Positions 9,938-21,734 of a stretch of 25,079 bases of DNA are shown here, piece by piece (position 1 is the stretch's first letter; the number at the start of each line of letters is the position of its first letter). The notes beneath the pieces are model-generated. The model did no database searches and had not been told where the DNA came from. It saw only the letters and a program-made list of their open reading frames with translations. A program made the translations under genes and the position numbers. Origin of the DNA: a virus; IMG/VR virus record IMGVR_UViG_3300044647_001322, positions 1 to 25,079 of that record; one strand, 5' to 3'.

Positions 9938-10528
9938 GTTCTTTTCTGGGAACTGTTCCATTAACTGCTTAGTCTTTGGAGTAAGTCCATGCCAAGAACT
10001 CCAATCTTTACCGCCTCTACTCATGTAGTAAGCGATCTTTGCATTGACCACAGGGTTGAGCAATTCGGCATTATTTTCTAAACCAAATTTTTCTCTACGA
10101 TCTTTGCCTAACTCTCCGATCATGTTTATTTGAAACATGCCCCACGAGTTATCACCTGTGTTTGTATTAGGATTGTGAGCGAGGGGTCGCCCATTACTTT
10201 CTTTCTTAGCAACTGCCCATGCTTCTTTCAGGTCTGTGCCTGTAAAGCCTACGGCATGAAGCAACTCAACCAATTCAAGATCGGTTAACTTATGAGTATT
10301 TTCATACTTCTTTAAGGTTGCTTCGTTTGTTGTTTCGCTAACTATTAGTGCTTCGGCTCTTGTTGGTGCTATGGCATCTGATGTAGTTGCTACTCCAAAT
10401 GCTACGGCTAAGGTCGAAATTGACCCACCAAGTATTAAAGCCTTTAGTCTTGCTTGGGCTTTTGCTGATGCTTTGGCTATTGCCTTTGGCATCTGCTCGG
10501 CTCTTATTCTTGCGTTTGTTTTCATCAT
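9926..10528 (-). CDS. secreted lysozyme-like / lytic transglycosylase protein
   Basis: About 200 aa. A very basic Ala/Lys-rich N-terminus (KAIAKASAKAQARLK) precedes one hydrophobic segment (ALILGGSISTLAVAFGVA), giving a signal or signal-anchor sequence with an AxA site (DAIA) after it. The C-terminal domain has the lysozyme-fold pattern: catalytic Glu near residue 110 (AKKESNGRP), then DNSWGMFQIN and a C-terminal GGKDWSSWHG. It would cleave peptidoglycan outside the membrane, as an endolysin or a wall-remodelling enzyme. Its start overlaps the integrase stop (GTG 10531, ATG 10528 or 10525 possible), so it is cotranslated with integrase, an unusual pairing. Confidence 0.82.
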   Translation of the reverse strand: MMKTNARIRAEQMPKAIAKASAKAQARLKALILGGSISTLAVAFGVATTSDAIAPTRAEALIVSETTNEATLKKYENTHKLTDLELVELLHAVGFTGTDLKEAWAVAKKESNGRPLAHNPNTNTGDNSWGMFQINMIGELGKDRREKFGLENNAELLNPVVNAKIAYYMSRGGKDWSSWHGLTPKTKQLMEQFPEKNAKQ

Positions 10529-11865
10529 CACTCCAAATAGTCGTTGGCACTTTCAGATGCCTTTGACTGGTGTGAACGAAGGCGGTGTAAATACCGCTCT
10601 GTCGTCTTGATCGATTGGTGTCCTAATCGCTCTTTTACTTCATGGACATCTATGCCGTTCTTTAACAACTGCGTAGCGTTTGCATGTCGTAAATCATGAG
10701 TTCTAGGCGACCAGCCGATTGCGGACTTGGCTATTGCTTTGTTCCAAGTTGTTCTCCATACATCACGAGGCATGTGGCTCATATTGTTGATGAAACTCCC
10801 TTGCTTGTGCTTCTGCTGATGCTTCTGCTTTGCCTTACGGCTTCGGCTTCTTACCTGCTCTGCTTCTGCTAGTGCTTCTGCTTGGGCTTTGGCTTTGCGG
10901 TAGTTTGCTACTGCTTGCCTACACCCTTCGCATCTACAACCCCCATGTGTATAGGAGTAAAGAGTTCCATGCTGGAACTGTTTTCCGCCTTTCTCGAATG
11001 GTCGAGAGGGCTTTGCGCTTCGTGAACCTTTAAGTTTACCTTCCGTTAAGAGTATTGTTCTTGGAAACATCAGATCATCTTTTGCTATGCCTTTTGCTAG
11101 GACATACGCATTTAACTGCTGTAATAGGGCTTTTCCTATCACTAGGCTTCTCTTATGCCCTGACTTGGTGGCATCTATCACCATGAACCTAGTTCCATTG
11201 TTGTAATTTGTTCCTAGATCACTAACTCGCCTTTGAATAAAGATTTCGCCAGTTTTGAAATTAATGTCTTTTGCTCTTACTTCCGTTGCTTCACCAAATC
11301 GGCAACCACTTGCTACTAAGAATTGGGCAAATAATTTAGTTCCTTGTGTTGGTAAATGCTTAATGATCTCCTTAAACTCATCAGGGTCTAGGAGATTAGA
11401 TATATTGGCATGATTGACCTTGATCTTAATTCCATGTGTCGGATTGCTCTCTAATTGACCAGCATTAACCAACTTTGAAAACATTGAGCCAAGAGAAGCC
11501 TTCACCTGATTTAAGGTGGCAGGTCTAACTCCCGATAGTTTGAGATCATCAATTAACTTAACTAGGTCTGAAGGCTTCAGGGAAGTTAGTTCTCGATCTC
11601 CTATAACTGGAATTACAAATCTAGTTAAGACCGACTTATAGCCCTTCTTTGTGATTGGCATTAGATCAGCCACCGCCAGCCATTGATCTACAAAATCAAC
11701 CACCCTTAAATTAGCCTTTGAGGGGGCTTTTAAGCCCTGCTTCTCGGCTTGTATGGCGTGATACATGGCTTCGGTTTCATTAGCCCATGTGCCAGCCGAT
11801 AAACGGCGATTTTGAAGCCTGTAATAGCCTGTAAATCTGCCGTTGCGCTTAATCACATACGCCAT
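10528..11865 (-). CDS. int: tyrosine integrase with inserted CRC-type Cys motif
   Basis: A 445-aa site-specific recombinase for phage integration and excision. N-terminal arm-binding and SAM-like core domains span about 1-155; the catalytic domain has R189 (SGCRFGEATEV), a likely K234, H390-R393 (THDLRH), H416 (LGHQSIKTT) and nucleophile Y425. Within the catalytic domain, about residues 298-355, sits an insert, HGTLYSYTHGGCRCEGC followed by a Lys/Ala/Gln-rich stretch, that resembles the small HGT...GCRC..CR motif common in actinobacterial phage proteins. All catalytic residues are present, so the enzyme is probably active. Start ATG 11865 follows a GGGGGCAA leader; three operator-like repeats lie just upstream. 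Confidence 0.93.
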   Translation of the reverse strand: MAYVIKRNGRFTGYYRLQNRRLSAGTWANETEAMYHAIQAEKQGLKAPSKANLRVVDFVDQWLAVADLMPITKKGYKSVLTRFVIPVIGDRELTSLKPSDLVKLIDDLKLSGVRPATLNQVKASLGSMFSKLVNAGQLESNPTHGIKIKVNHANISNLLDPDEFKEIIKHLPTQGTKLFAQFLVASGCRFGEATEVRAKDINFKTGEIFIQRRVSDLGTNYNNGTRFMVIDATKSGHKRSLVIGKALLQQLNAYVLAKGIAKDDLMFPRTILLTEGKLKGSRSAKPSRPFEKGGKQFQHGTLYSYTHGGCRCEGCRQAVANYRKAKAQAEALAEAEQVRSRSRKAKQKHQQKHKQGSFINNMSHMPRDVWRTTWNKAIAKSAIGWSPRTHDLRHANATQLLKNGIDVHEVKERLGHQSIKTTERYLHRLRSHQSKASESANDYLE

Positions 11866-11877
11866 AAGTTGCCCCCT

Positions 11878-11928
11878 CTACTGGCGAGTAATGACCCTTC
11901 TACTGGCGAGTAATACTACTGGTGAGTA
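11878..11928. repeat. three copies of CTACTGGCGAGTA upstream of integrase
   Basis: Copies at 11878-11890 and 11900-11912 are identical; a third at 11916-11928 has T for C. Each is a near-palindrome (TACT...AGTA). They lie 13-63 nt before the integrase start and could be repressor operators or integrase arm sites. Confidence 0.7.
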
Positions 11929-11947
11929 GGTTCTTAATCAAAAGATA

Positions 11948-12016: not shown

Positions 12017-12092
12017 AACTAACTTGGTGGAACACCAGATAAGTTAGTTATTGAGCGTGAACTAACTTTCTGGAATTAAATAAAAGTTAGTT
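12017..12092. repeat. two inverted pairs of AACTAACTT/AAGTTAGTT
   Basis: AACTAACTT at 12017-12025 and 12060-12068; AAGTTAGTT at 12041-12049 and 12084-12092. Both pairs have the same 24-nt offset. The first encloses TGGTG-gaa-CACCA; the second extends to 11-bp perfect arms (GAACTAACTTT/AAAGTTAGTTC). They lie directly after the last early gene on the minus strand, so they may also act as terminator hairpins. Confidence 0.75.
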
Positions 12093-14268: not shown

Positions 14269-14419
14269 TTTTATTCTCCTTTAATTGATTTAGATATTCC
14301 GTTTCTATCTTTCTAATCTGTATTCTTGAAGTTCCAAACATACGAGCAACTTCGGATAAAGATTTTTGATACTCAATTCTTTGGTGAACTATTTTTTTCT
14401 TTTCATTTTCATTAAACAT
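14261..14419 (-). CDS. 52-aa protein resembling sigma-70 region 4.2
   Basis: ATG at 14419 with GGAGTAAGTA ahead of it; stop at 14261, overlapping the next gene by 8 nt. The body SLSEVARMFGTSRIQIRKIE aligns well with sigma-70 region 4.2 (pattern TLEEVGxxFxVTRERIRQIExxAL), preceded by a helix matching region 4.1. No regions 2 or 3 are present. It could bind -35 DNA or the RNA polymerase beta flap and act as an anti-sigma, an appropriator or a small activator. A generic HTH protein is the alternative. Confidence 0.7.
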   Translation of the reverse strand: MFNENEKKKIVHQRIEYQKSLSEVARMFGTSRIQIRKIETEYLNQLKENKNG

Positions 14420-14591
14420 TACTTACTCCAATTCTATTAGGAGTTGAGTAGGCGCAGATACGGCTCGTTTTATTATCCAAAGCAAATTAAGGAAATAAAA
14501 GTCTTGACCGCCCTTCACAAGTGAAAGGAGTGGGGAATGAAAACAAAACCCCATTAAGGTCTTGTGTTAACGCCTACCCAACAATTTTAAG
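14420..14591. other. intergenic stretch inside early operon
   Basis: 172 nt with no well-supported gene. Minus strand has a possible -10 (GGATAATAA near 14470-14480), so an internal promoter for the sigma-4-like/WhiB block is plausible. It also holds a small dyad TTCAC-aa-GTGAA (14514-14525). A 43-codon frame on the minus strand ending near 14420 lacks a ribosome-binding site and is not called. Confidence 0.35.
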
Positions 14592-14768: not shown

Positions 14769-14927
14769 TTATTTACCCCCAAAATAACATTGATCAATAG
14801 TGCCAAAGCAATAGTGATCACCAACCCAACTGATGTGTGTTGCTAAATAATAAGTTCCAACCGCTAACGCACTCCAAAATAGAATACGAACTCCAGTTCG
14901 AACTCGATAATAAGTTTTTGATCTCAT
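14769..14927 (-). CDS. small single-pass membrane protein, 52 aa
   Basis: A basic N-terminus (MRSKTYYRVRTGVR) precedes one hydrophobic segment (ILFWSALAVGTYYLA), followed by a short tail with two Cys. The basic residues predict an inside N-terminus. ATG follows the HNH stop directly (TAAATG), with GGAG 7 nt upstream. A near-perfect LexA half-site pair, CGAACtccaGTTCGA, lies inside its coding region at 14887-14901, probably by chance. Role unknown. Confidence 0.65.
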   Translation of the reverse strand: MRSKTYYRVRTGVRILFWSALAVGTYYLATHISWVGDHYCFGTIDQCYFGGK

Positions 14928-20076: not shown

Positions 20077-20259
20077 TTATTTTAGTCCTTTGACTATTTT
20101 GTTGATGTTTAAGTTTTTCAAAACATCAAGAGTGTAGTTATCGGAACGAGTAGAAAAGAACCGAGTTCCATTAGATAGAACGAGATCAATTTGGTTAATT
20201 GAGATTGTTCCAGTAGCAACGATATTTCCGTTTGTATCTATATATGTATTTGTTTTCAT
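20077..20259 (-). CDS. hypothetical protein, 60 aa, first gene of early operon
   Basis: A small beta-rich protein (MKTNTYIDTNGNIVATG) with a basic C-terminus. Start supported by AAAAGGAATAAGTAATG. It is the promoter-proximal gene after the operator-like region 20312-20380. No family recognised; first genes of early operons often encode host-takeover or regulatory proteins, but this is inference. Confidence 0.6.
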   Translation of the reverse strand: MKTNTYIDTNGNIVATGTISINQIDLVLSNGTRFFSTRSDNYTLDVLKNLNINKIVKGLK

Positions 20260-20311
20260 TACTTATTCCTTTTGTTAGGGGGAAGGAATTAAGTTCTATA
20301 TTAAGTTGTAT

Positions 20312-20330
20312 TGAATACACTATGTATTCA
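20312..20330. promoter_or_regulatory. operator-like dyad TGAATACA-CTA-TGTATTCA
   Basis: A perfect 8+3+8 palindrome 53 nt upstream of the first early gene, where a promoter is expected. The shape fits a dimeric repressor site. No phage repressor gene was recognised in the window. Confidence 0.6.
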
Positions 20331-20333
20331 CCA

Positions 20334-20380
20334 CTATTACTGGTAAAGATAATTCGCAGATTATTTATTGCCAGTAATAG
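20334..20380. repeat. 10-bp inverted repeat CTATTACTGG/CCAGTAATAG
   Basis: Perfect arms at 20334-20343 and 20371-20380, 27 nt apart, next to the palindrome. CCAGTAATA also appears near 21147. Likely part of the early control region. Confidence 0.55.
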
Positions 20381-20649
20381 CAGAAAACACATATAGCAAT
20401 ATGTTTATTTTATTTATTATTAATTAACTTCTTAGTGCTTAGATCAGATTGGATACTGTCGGCATTTGTTATTAACAAAACTATCCATGATTAATTAATA
20501 GAAAACATATTGATTATGTTTGCCTAATTCTCTATGTAATTAATAGTTGATTGATTTGCTATCACCTTAATAAGTTCCCGAAGGATTTAATGACTTATTA
20601 AGTTCACTAGAGTTCAATCTCTATCTAGGCTTTTTTCACTTGAAAATTA

Positions 20650-20686
20650 TTGATCTTTTGCCCCTAGAGGTTTCTAAAAAGATCAA
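20650..20686. repeat. 10-bp inverted repeat TTGATCTTTT/AAAAGATCAA
   Basis: Perfect arms at 20650-20659 and 20677-20686 with a 17-nt loop. The left arm ends in T4 and the right begins with A4; it could be a bidirectional terminator or a protein site. Confidence 0.5.
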
Positions 20687-20829
20687 ACTTTTATCGTCGT
20701 GTGCCTGACCACAGCGTAGCAGAAAATCCAGTTGACCTTGATCACCTGATAAGAGCGAGTTCTAGCGTGGGTAATATGTCCGAATTGCCCGATTGAGCGT
20801 GGAACACGCTGGCTCATGGCTGGCTGATC

Positions 20830-20865
20830 GGGGTTTGGGTGGGGTGATCGGGTCTAAATGGGGGG
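20830..20865 (+). other. G-quadruplex-capable tract
   Basis: Five runs of three or more G (20830-20833, 20837-20839, 20841-20844, 20850-20852, 20860-20865) with loops of 3, 1, 5 and 7 nt. The first four satisfy the usual G3+N1-7 rule. This is striking in an AT-rich genome. Confidence 0.6.
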
Positions 20866-20967
20866 TAGAAGGCTAGAAAGCCCCCTAGAAGCCCGATTAG
20901 GGCTATCTGAGCGTGAGAGCCTGAGCGTGGGGGCTAACTGGCGATCTCGGAACTGGAACTAACTATC

Positions 20968-20983
20968 TCGAACACCCGTTCGA
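20968..20983. promoter_or_regulatory. LexA/SOS box TCGAAC-N4-GTTCGA
   Basis: TCGAACACCCGTTCGA is a perfect match to the actinobacterial LexA-binding consensus as known from mycobacteria. It lies in the control region between the early operon and the tRNA gene. It suggests that host LexA represses or times phage transcription. No start codon lies close enough to assign a target gene. Confidence 0.7.
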
Positions 20984-21025
20984 AATTGCGAACTTACTCA
21001 TGGTGGCGGTGGCGGTGGTGGAAGC

Positions 21026-21070
21026 AAGTTAGTTGCGAACTAACTTTAATGGGCGTGCATGAAGTTAGTT
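21026..21070. repeat. AAGTTAGTT repeats, control-region cluster
   Basis: AAGTTAGTT (21026-21034), GCG, AACTAACTT (21038-21046) form a perfect hairpin; another AAGTTAGTT is at 21062-21070. Near copies lie at 20957-20965 and 21424-21432. Same 9-mer as around the integrase block. Confidence 0.75.
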
Positions 21071-21189
21071 AGTTAAGTGTGTGCGCCTTGTGAGAGATGT
21101 TTAGTTATTTAATTATGTGGGAAATTGCGCCCGAATTGTTTTTTTCCAGTAATAACTAATAGAGATATAAGAGAGAGAGATAGATAGAT

Positions 21190-21261
21190 ACATGTTCCAT
21201 GTTTATTAATAGTTAATAGTTATGTGATGCCAAGAGATACTAATTGCTACATGGAACATGT
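21190..21261. repeat. 13-bp inverted repeat ACATGTTCCATGT/ACATGGAACATGT
   Basis: Exact inverted copies at 21190-21202 and 21249-21261, 46 nt apart, each with an internal dyad (ACATG...CATGT). The shared core TGGAACA recurs elsewhere in non-coding DNA of the window. Confidence 0.65.
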
Positions 21262-21640
21262 GGCTATGTAGTGATGCGTATGCGTTTGGTTATGTGAGTT
21301 ATTACAAGGAGAGAAGGCACTAGGTAATAGTGATGTATTGATCTGATAACAACTCGGAGAGTTGGCTAATAGGCTGGTGGTATCCGTATTAACAAACTGT
21401 TGCCGTAGTCAGTAGCCAAACGCTAGTTAGTTGTGCCGTCATCAAATAGTCATCAAGCCATGTGGAACACATAGTTATTGAGCGCATGTTAACAAGATCG
21501 CACCTGATTAATAGTCAGGGGAGATTGTTAACACTAATAAATTGCTAAGACCCCCCCACCATTAAGCGTGAGCGCACAGGGGACCCCCCAGGTTGGAGAC
21601 ATGGTTGACGTGTTTGAGCCAAAGCAGTAGCCAAAAGAGG

Positions 21641-21658: not shown

Positions 21659-21734
21659 GCGGATGTAGCGCAATTGGTAGCGCACCACCTTGCCAAGGTG
21701 GATGTTGCGAGTTCGAGTCTCGTCATCCGCTCCA
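21659..21734 (+). tRNA. tRNA-Gly (anticodon GCC), CCA encoded
   Basis: A full cloverleaf: acceptor GCGGATG with CATCCGC, D-arm GCGC...GCGC, anticodon stem CCACC/GGTGG with loop TTGCCAA (anticodon GCC), T-arm GCGAG-TTCGAGT-CTCGT, discriminator T and an encoded CCA. It has its own promoter-like box. It may supply Gly-tRNA for phage translation or serve as an attachment-site gene; no second copy of its 3' half was noticed in the window. Confidence 0.97.

Follow-up and report, generated by a model that had tools for sequence, protein, structure and literature searches.

A conserved structured RNA and a subclade-restricted LexA-type box in the control region of a temperate actinobacterial phage

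Introduction

Does a perfect match to the LexA operator of actinobacteria, when found in the control region of a temperate phage, mean that the host LexA protein holds the phage in lysogeny? The question is raised by the palindrome TCGAACACCCGTTCGA, located at nucleotides 20968-20983 of the IMG/VR virus record IMGVR_UViG_3300044647_001322, whose 25 kb (25,079 nucleotides) are referred to here as the window. A first-pass annotation had described this sequence as a perfect actinobacterial SOS box in a control region without a recognized phage repressor, and had proposed that host LexA may directly hold part of the lysogenic switch. Comparison of the control region with those of 42, later 52, related viral loci leads us to a model of two halves, one consisting of operator-like DNA sites and the other of a structured leader RNA, in which the LexA-type box would be an accessory element. 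We give this overall model about even chances of being right.

The LexA-type box

The palindrome is the sole exact match within the window to TCGAACN4GTTCGA, for which a first-order Markov model gives a chance expectation of 4.9e-4 in the whole window and of 1.5e-5 in nucleotides 20260-21600. It equals, including the 4-bp spacing, the published actinobacterial LexA consensus, which was obtained from Streptomyces venezuelae (tCGAAC-N4-GNNCGa, PMC9380542) and may not be that of the host of this phage. Since the window has 13 perfect 6-4-6 palindromes of any sequence, it is the match to the consensus and not the palindromic character that sets the box apart. The surrounding segment, nucleotides 20260-21600, is a gene-poor 1.3-kb gap that separates divergent gene blocks. 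The earlier naming of the sequence as a perfect SOS box, of its motif as actinobacterial and of its surroundings as a control region is thus borne out.

Other sites of this type were considered and rejected as LexA boxes. A second CGAACN4GTTCG sequence, at nucleotides 14887-14900, lies within a small open reading frame (ORF) in which it encodes VRTGVR, and relatives have at this place TCGAACTGCGGTTCGT and TAGAACTGCCGTTCGC, both coding for VRTAVR; because these changes follow the codon constraint, the site is maintained by the encoded protein. The site TCGAACAGATGTTCTA of record G014 is also inside an ORF, and the AGAACTTCGGTTCG sites of G015 and G016 lie within the RNA region described below, where with their UUCG loop they more likely form an RNA hairpin. 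The possibility that the box itself acts as an RNA hairpin was discarded as well: a 6-bp stem can be drawn, but it shows no compensatory changes and its arms degrade in locus L009.

In the eight loci that carry the box (Table 1) the twelve bases of the arms are invariant, the spacer is altered once, and the adjoining bases vary. The constancy of the arms next to variable bases indicates that the box is probably bound by something, and to judge from the motif the most likely ligand is host LexA. Conservation in related phages, which had been suggested as a check of the SOS box, is confined to the closest relatives. The box is absent from L008, L012 and L013 and degenerate in L009 and L010 (TAGAACatgtGTTCGC). 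L002 and L042, two loci that are otherwise nearly identical here, have lost it by what appears to be a deletion between short direct repeats. More distant relatives have no CGAACN4GTTCG site at ≤1 mismatch in the upstream portion of their control regions.

A candidate extended -10 sequence (nucleotides 20721-20713) defines the sole plausible leftward promoter, and the box is located some 250 bp upstream of it. The distance to the first start codon in the leftward direction (nucleotide 20259) is about 710 bp, and on the plus strand the first ORF that is credible lies several hundred bp away. No core promoter was recognized beside the box, which is thus neither at a recognized promoter nor in the interval from about -200 to +100 relative to a start codon. 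While it resembles the actinobacterial LexA/SOS boxes (PMC9380542) in sequence, spacing, palindromic structure and occurrence in an actinobacterial phage, it differs from them in not overlapping a promoter, in its distance from start codons and in its restriction to one subclade.

The phage and its lysogenic lifestyle

The window encodes both WhiB and a tyrosine integrase, and on the basis of the former this freshwater phage is taken to be an actinophage. Its closest annotated relatives, as identified through the ATPase gene, are Brevibacterium and Gordonia phages of 83-93 kb with 39-43% identity. No host locus was found when genome contigs were searched with the exact 3' half of the tRNA-Gly or by ATPase alignment. 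As the integrase was found in all 20 related records tested, the phage group can be considered temperate. No S24/LexA-type repressor was found in 20 related records and no HTH_3 domain scored above the cut-off in 12, in agreement with the earlier remark that no phage repressor was recognized. An unlisted small ORF of about 50 amino acids, at nucleotides 14289-14422 of the minus strand, is a putative regulator with a helix-turn-helix (HTH) like that of sigma region 4 or HTH_3 (a weak match, below cut-off).

A 33-bp inverted repeat in the control region and beside the integrase gene

At a distance of 55 bp from the box there is a 33-bp inverted repeat, AACTAACTT-N15-AAGTTAGTT, that is found in three copies in the window, all of them perfect. 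The sequence of the spacer is variable and its length of 15 is strongly favoured. Related genomes carry the repeat at the control region, directly ahead of the integrase gene, or at both places, the sole exception being a copy with one mismatch in G013; it was not found in the Gordonia phages GMA6 or Hanem. Because it is also placed beside the integrase gene, the repeat is probably the operator of a phage regulator, and its arrangement makes it a better candidate for a phage operator than the LexA-type box. Sites of this kind would be needed by a phage regulator that couples the early genes to integration.

Other repeated sequences are present near these loci. An inverted repeat with the arms TAGATAGATACATGTTCCATGT and ACATGGAACATGTGGCTATGTA occupies nucleotides 21181-21202 and 21249-21270, 46 nt apart, and ACATGGAACATGTATC is retained by most close relatives. 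Direct repeats of CTACTGGCGAGTAA are found at nucleotides 11870-11930, immediately 5' of the integrase gene, and are likely integrase arm-type sites near attP. The integrase has an insert, at about residues 284-356, with a weak match to HNH or HTH phage families (nucleotides 10528-11865, minus strand). The motif CAGTAGCC (GGCTACTGC in relatives) is found on the plus strand at 21411, 21626, 22220 and 23625, upstream of plus-strand genes, and may be a phage promoter element.

A structured RNA upstream of the leftward operon

The other half of the control region includes a series of potential RNA structures on the minus strand (Table 1), to which the GAAA and UUCG loops point as the RNA sense. 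In an alignment of 22 sequences (A3) the stems of the core (a closing stem P1, a short stem, P2 and P3) surround conserved junction bases, and the consensus is AUGGANUG..UGCMGNCRGUANYCAAUCYG..ACANUGA. Its 23 pairs are formed in 88% of the cells and 19 of them have two-sided changes, the covariation being 0.628 as compared to 0.229 for shuffled and ≤0.206 for slid controls. RNAalifold independently recovered most of this pairing plus one helix that had not been proposed, in which pair 20-71 is UA, AU, CG or GU and forms in 22/22 sequences. The long 3' hairpin has 32 pairs, 20 with two-sided changes (covariation 0.514, versus 0.224 shuffled and ≤0.161 slid), and a hairpin with a GAAA tetraloop located upstream of the core in relatives has a covariation of 0.384 versus 0.134. 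Compensatory base changes are thus found in the core, the long hairpin and the GAAA hairpin.

The structured RNA is directly upstream of an ORF of the same sense, and in the inspected relatives the first ORF comes after the long hairpin, also in records in which the first small ORF codes for a different protein. In the window and most relatives a segment immediately downstream (AUGUAUUC) offers an alternative partner to the 3' strand (GAAUACAU) of the long hairpin, and both sides of this pairing change together in L024 (GGAUAC/GUAUCC) and L087 (UACGUA). L026-L029 and L031-L037 lack the alternative partner, and there the ribosome-binding site comes next. As the two hairpins share one strand they would be mutually exclusive, and such paired alternatives may resemble a leader switch.

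Table 1. Coordinates of the features of the control region and of related sites in the window.
Feature	Nucleotides	Strand	Remarks
SOS/LexA-type box TCGAACacccGTTCGA	20968..20983	.	exact match; kept in L003-L007, L011, L022, L041
Inverted repeat AACTAACTT-N15-AAGTTAGTT, candidate phage operator	21038..21070	.	33 bp
Inverted repeat, second copy	12017..12049	.	upstream of integrase gene
Inverted repeat, third copy	12060..12092	.	upstream of integrase gene
Candidate extended -10 TGCTACGCT of leader RNA	20713..20721	-	inferred from alignment; TGCTAAGAT, TGCTAAAAT in relatives
Leader hairpin a, CCTCTAGGGG loop	20650..20686	-	arms vary between relatives yet stay complementary
Leader hairpin b, CTTAATAAGT / ACTTATTAAG closing UUCG loop	20566..20602	-	different loop in L007
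Conserved RNA core, three-way junction	20415..20502	-	alignment A3, models R1/R2
Long 3' hairpin of leader	20317..20397	-	alignment A4; ends ~60 nt before first ORF
Alternative hairpin UGAAUACA-UAG-UGUAUUCA	20312..20330	-	shares its 5' arm with the long hairpin (3' strand there)
First ORF after leader, 60 amino acids	20077..20259	-	conserved in several relatives
Tyrosine integrase	10528..11865	-	marks temperate lifestyle

Distribution of the RNA and comparison to known families

Most relatives have the core, the most distant of them at 47% ATPase identity, and the covariance model R2 identified exactly one copy per record in 16 phage records. R2 gave no match in Cantare, Hanem or GMA6, which are isolated relatives. 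In the Gordonia phages Hanem (L109, 3861-5027) and GMA6 (L110, 2850-3905) there is a divergent gap equivalent to that of the window, free of genes and about 1.1 kb long. When a degenerate DNA pattern of the core was compared to 2.9 million viral contigs, 25 loci were obtained; 21 came from contigs of known group members, L121 and L130 were new members of the group, and L111 and L118 were rejected as partial matches in unrelated phage. A tRNA-Gly(GCC) gene (nucleotides 21659-21734, plus strand) adjoins the control region; it is present in L003, L011 and L042 and absent at that place in others.

Comparison to Rfam 15 at the gathering thresholds gave no match to the RNA region, only the tRNA being detected, and in a scan of the window at E≤10 the other weak matches were far below the family cut-offs. 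GOLLD, or any other Rfam 15 family, was therefore rejected as the identity of the RNA for lack of a covariance-model match. As a large structured phage RNA of unknown function with a tRNA nearby it is reminiscent of GOLLD and ROOL (PMC12286853); it differs from them in having no Rfam match, in its shorter length (about 450 nt), in its location directly upstream of an ORF and in its consensus. Like riboswitch- or attenuator-like 5' leaders it has a conserved junction of several stems and then, ahead of the start codon, two hairpins that would exclude each other, but it matches no known ligand class and has no evident intrinsic terminator. The structured RNA is a more novel feature than the LexA-type box.

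A two-half model and its alternatives

The model places the operator-like DNA sites, namely the 33-bp inverted repeat and the subclade-only LexA-type box, in the upstream half (about 20940-21080), and the structured leader RNA in the downstream half (about 20700-20300, minus strand), ahead of a leftward operon that starts at 20259. As a 5' leader the RNA would start near 20710 and run leftward, the three-way junction would sense or bind something, and the terminal hairpin together with the mutually exclusive downstream hairpin would set the expression of the operon. Where present, the box most likely represents a genuine operator, though an accessory one, to which host LexA could bind and so add a DNA-damage input. 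A more specific proposal, an undescribed class of regulatory RNA with a junction sensor and two exclusive hairpins before the early operon, plus a repressor acting on the 33-bp repeat at operon and integrase, plus an optional LexA box in one subclade, is put forward tentatively, as something less probable than its negation. Several observations weigh against this view of the region. In the window the sequence taken as the promoter of the leader (TACGCT) resembles one only weakly and by eye, and the constancy of the box among close relatives could reflect short common descent. The phages of the window group have no GAAA hairpin and L009 and L010 have no core at all, which makes the RNA a modular element that is not strictly required. 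The alignments are automatic, without expert curation, and the shuffled controls ignore relatedness, which the slid controls take into account; overall, relatedness is controlled for in part.

Action of host LexA on phages is an idea ordinary in kind, with precedents in phage GIL01 (PMC4551915) and in prophage genes of S. venezuelae (PMC9380542). Direct repression of the early operon by host LexA bound to the box, holding lysogeny as in the Bacillus phage GIL01, would agree with the exact consensus in a temperate phage, with the finding of no S24 repressor in the 20 related records, and with the precedents of dinBox1, also a CGAAC-N4-GTTCG-type site in the control region of a temperate phage (PMC4551915), and of the LexA-bound prophage genes in Streptomyces (PMC9380542). 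However, the operator of such a switch should persist group-wide, and L002 and L042 have deleted it, while most relatives that keep the integrase and the remainder of the control region lack the box; moreover, the GIL01 box is within the P1 promoter region, and that of the window is not in a promoter of the early operon, being separated from the candidate promoter and the start codon by the distances given above. We therefore regard a lysogenic switch held by LexA as unsupported and this explanation as improbable: the motif match and the temperate actinophage of the first-pass annotation stand, and the evidence goes against the box as the heart of the switch. Instead, the palindrome might serve a phage regulator as its operator, or belong to a GAAC/AACTAAC-rich array of sites, and be unrelated to LexA. 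Numerous CGAAC and AACTAACT half-sites are packed in nucleotides 20950-21075, the nearby 33-bp repeat behaves like a phage operator, and L009 retains only the GAAC-N4-GTTC core; on the other hand, the box matches LexA sites in textbook fashion, down to the right 4-bp spacing, and the array motif (AACTAACT) differs from it, and we see this as a possibility well short of probable.

With respect to the RNA, the cis-acting leader has to be compared to a stand-alone phage non-coding RNA that would be released from the region by processing, similar to GOLLD and ROOL, which are phage RNAs near tRNAs (PMC12286853). A large structured region that adjoins a tRNA in a lake phage, and is followed by differing small ORFs, is compatible with such a molecule. 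It is made rather unlikely by the lack of an Rfam match, by the absence of the tRNA from this place in several relatives, and by the location of the last hairpin immediately before the ribosome-binding site in many relatives with no terminator-like U run after it. Alternatively, the region could chiefly be a replication origin, the hairpins and repeats serving initiation or a primer RNA and the box being incidental, as the divergent gene blocks, a GC skew that changes sign near 19-20 kb, the recurrence of the 33-bp inverted repeats and the equivalent gap near helicase and primase genes in the Gordonia and Brevibacterium relatives would suggest. The compensatory changes and tetraloops indicate an RNA function of a single sense, however, and the inverted repeats are also found by the integrase gene, for which reasons we doubt this explanation strongly.

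Implications for lysis and lysogeny

Freshwater actinobacterial phages are abundant and have hardly been studied, also as regards the way in which the temperate ones choose between lysis and lysogeny. Occurring once per genome throughout the group, showing strong compensatory changes and lacking a counterpart in Rfam, the RNA would give a new handle on this control, and the common inverted repeat is a testable operator connecting the early genes with integration. The LexA-type box would illustrate the gain or loss of a damage input inside one phage group.
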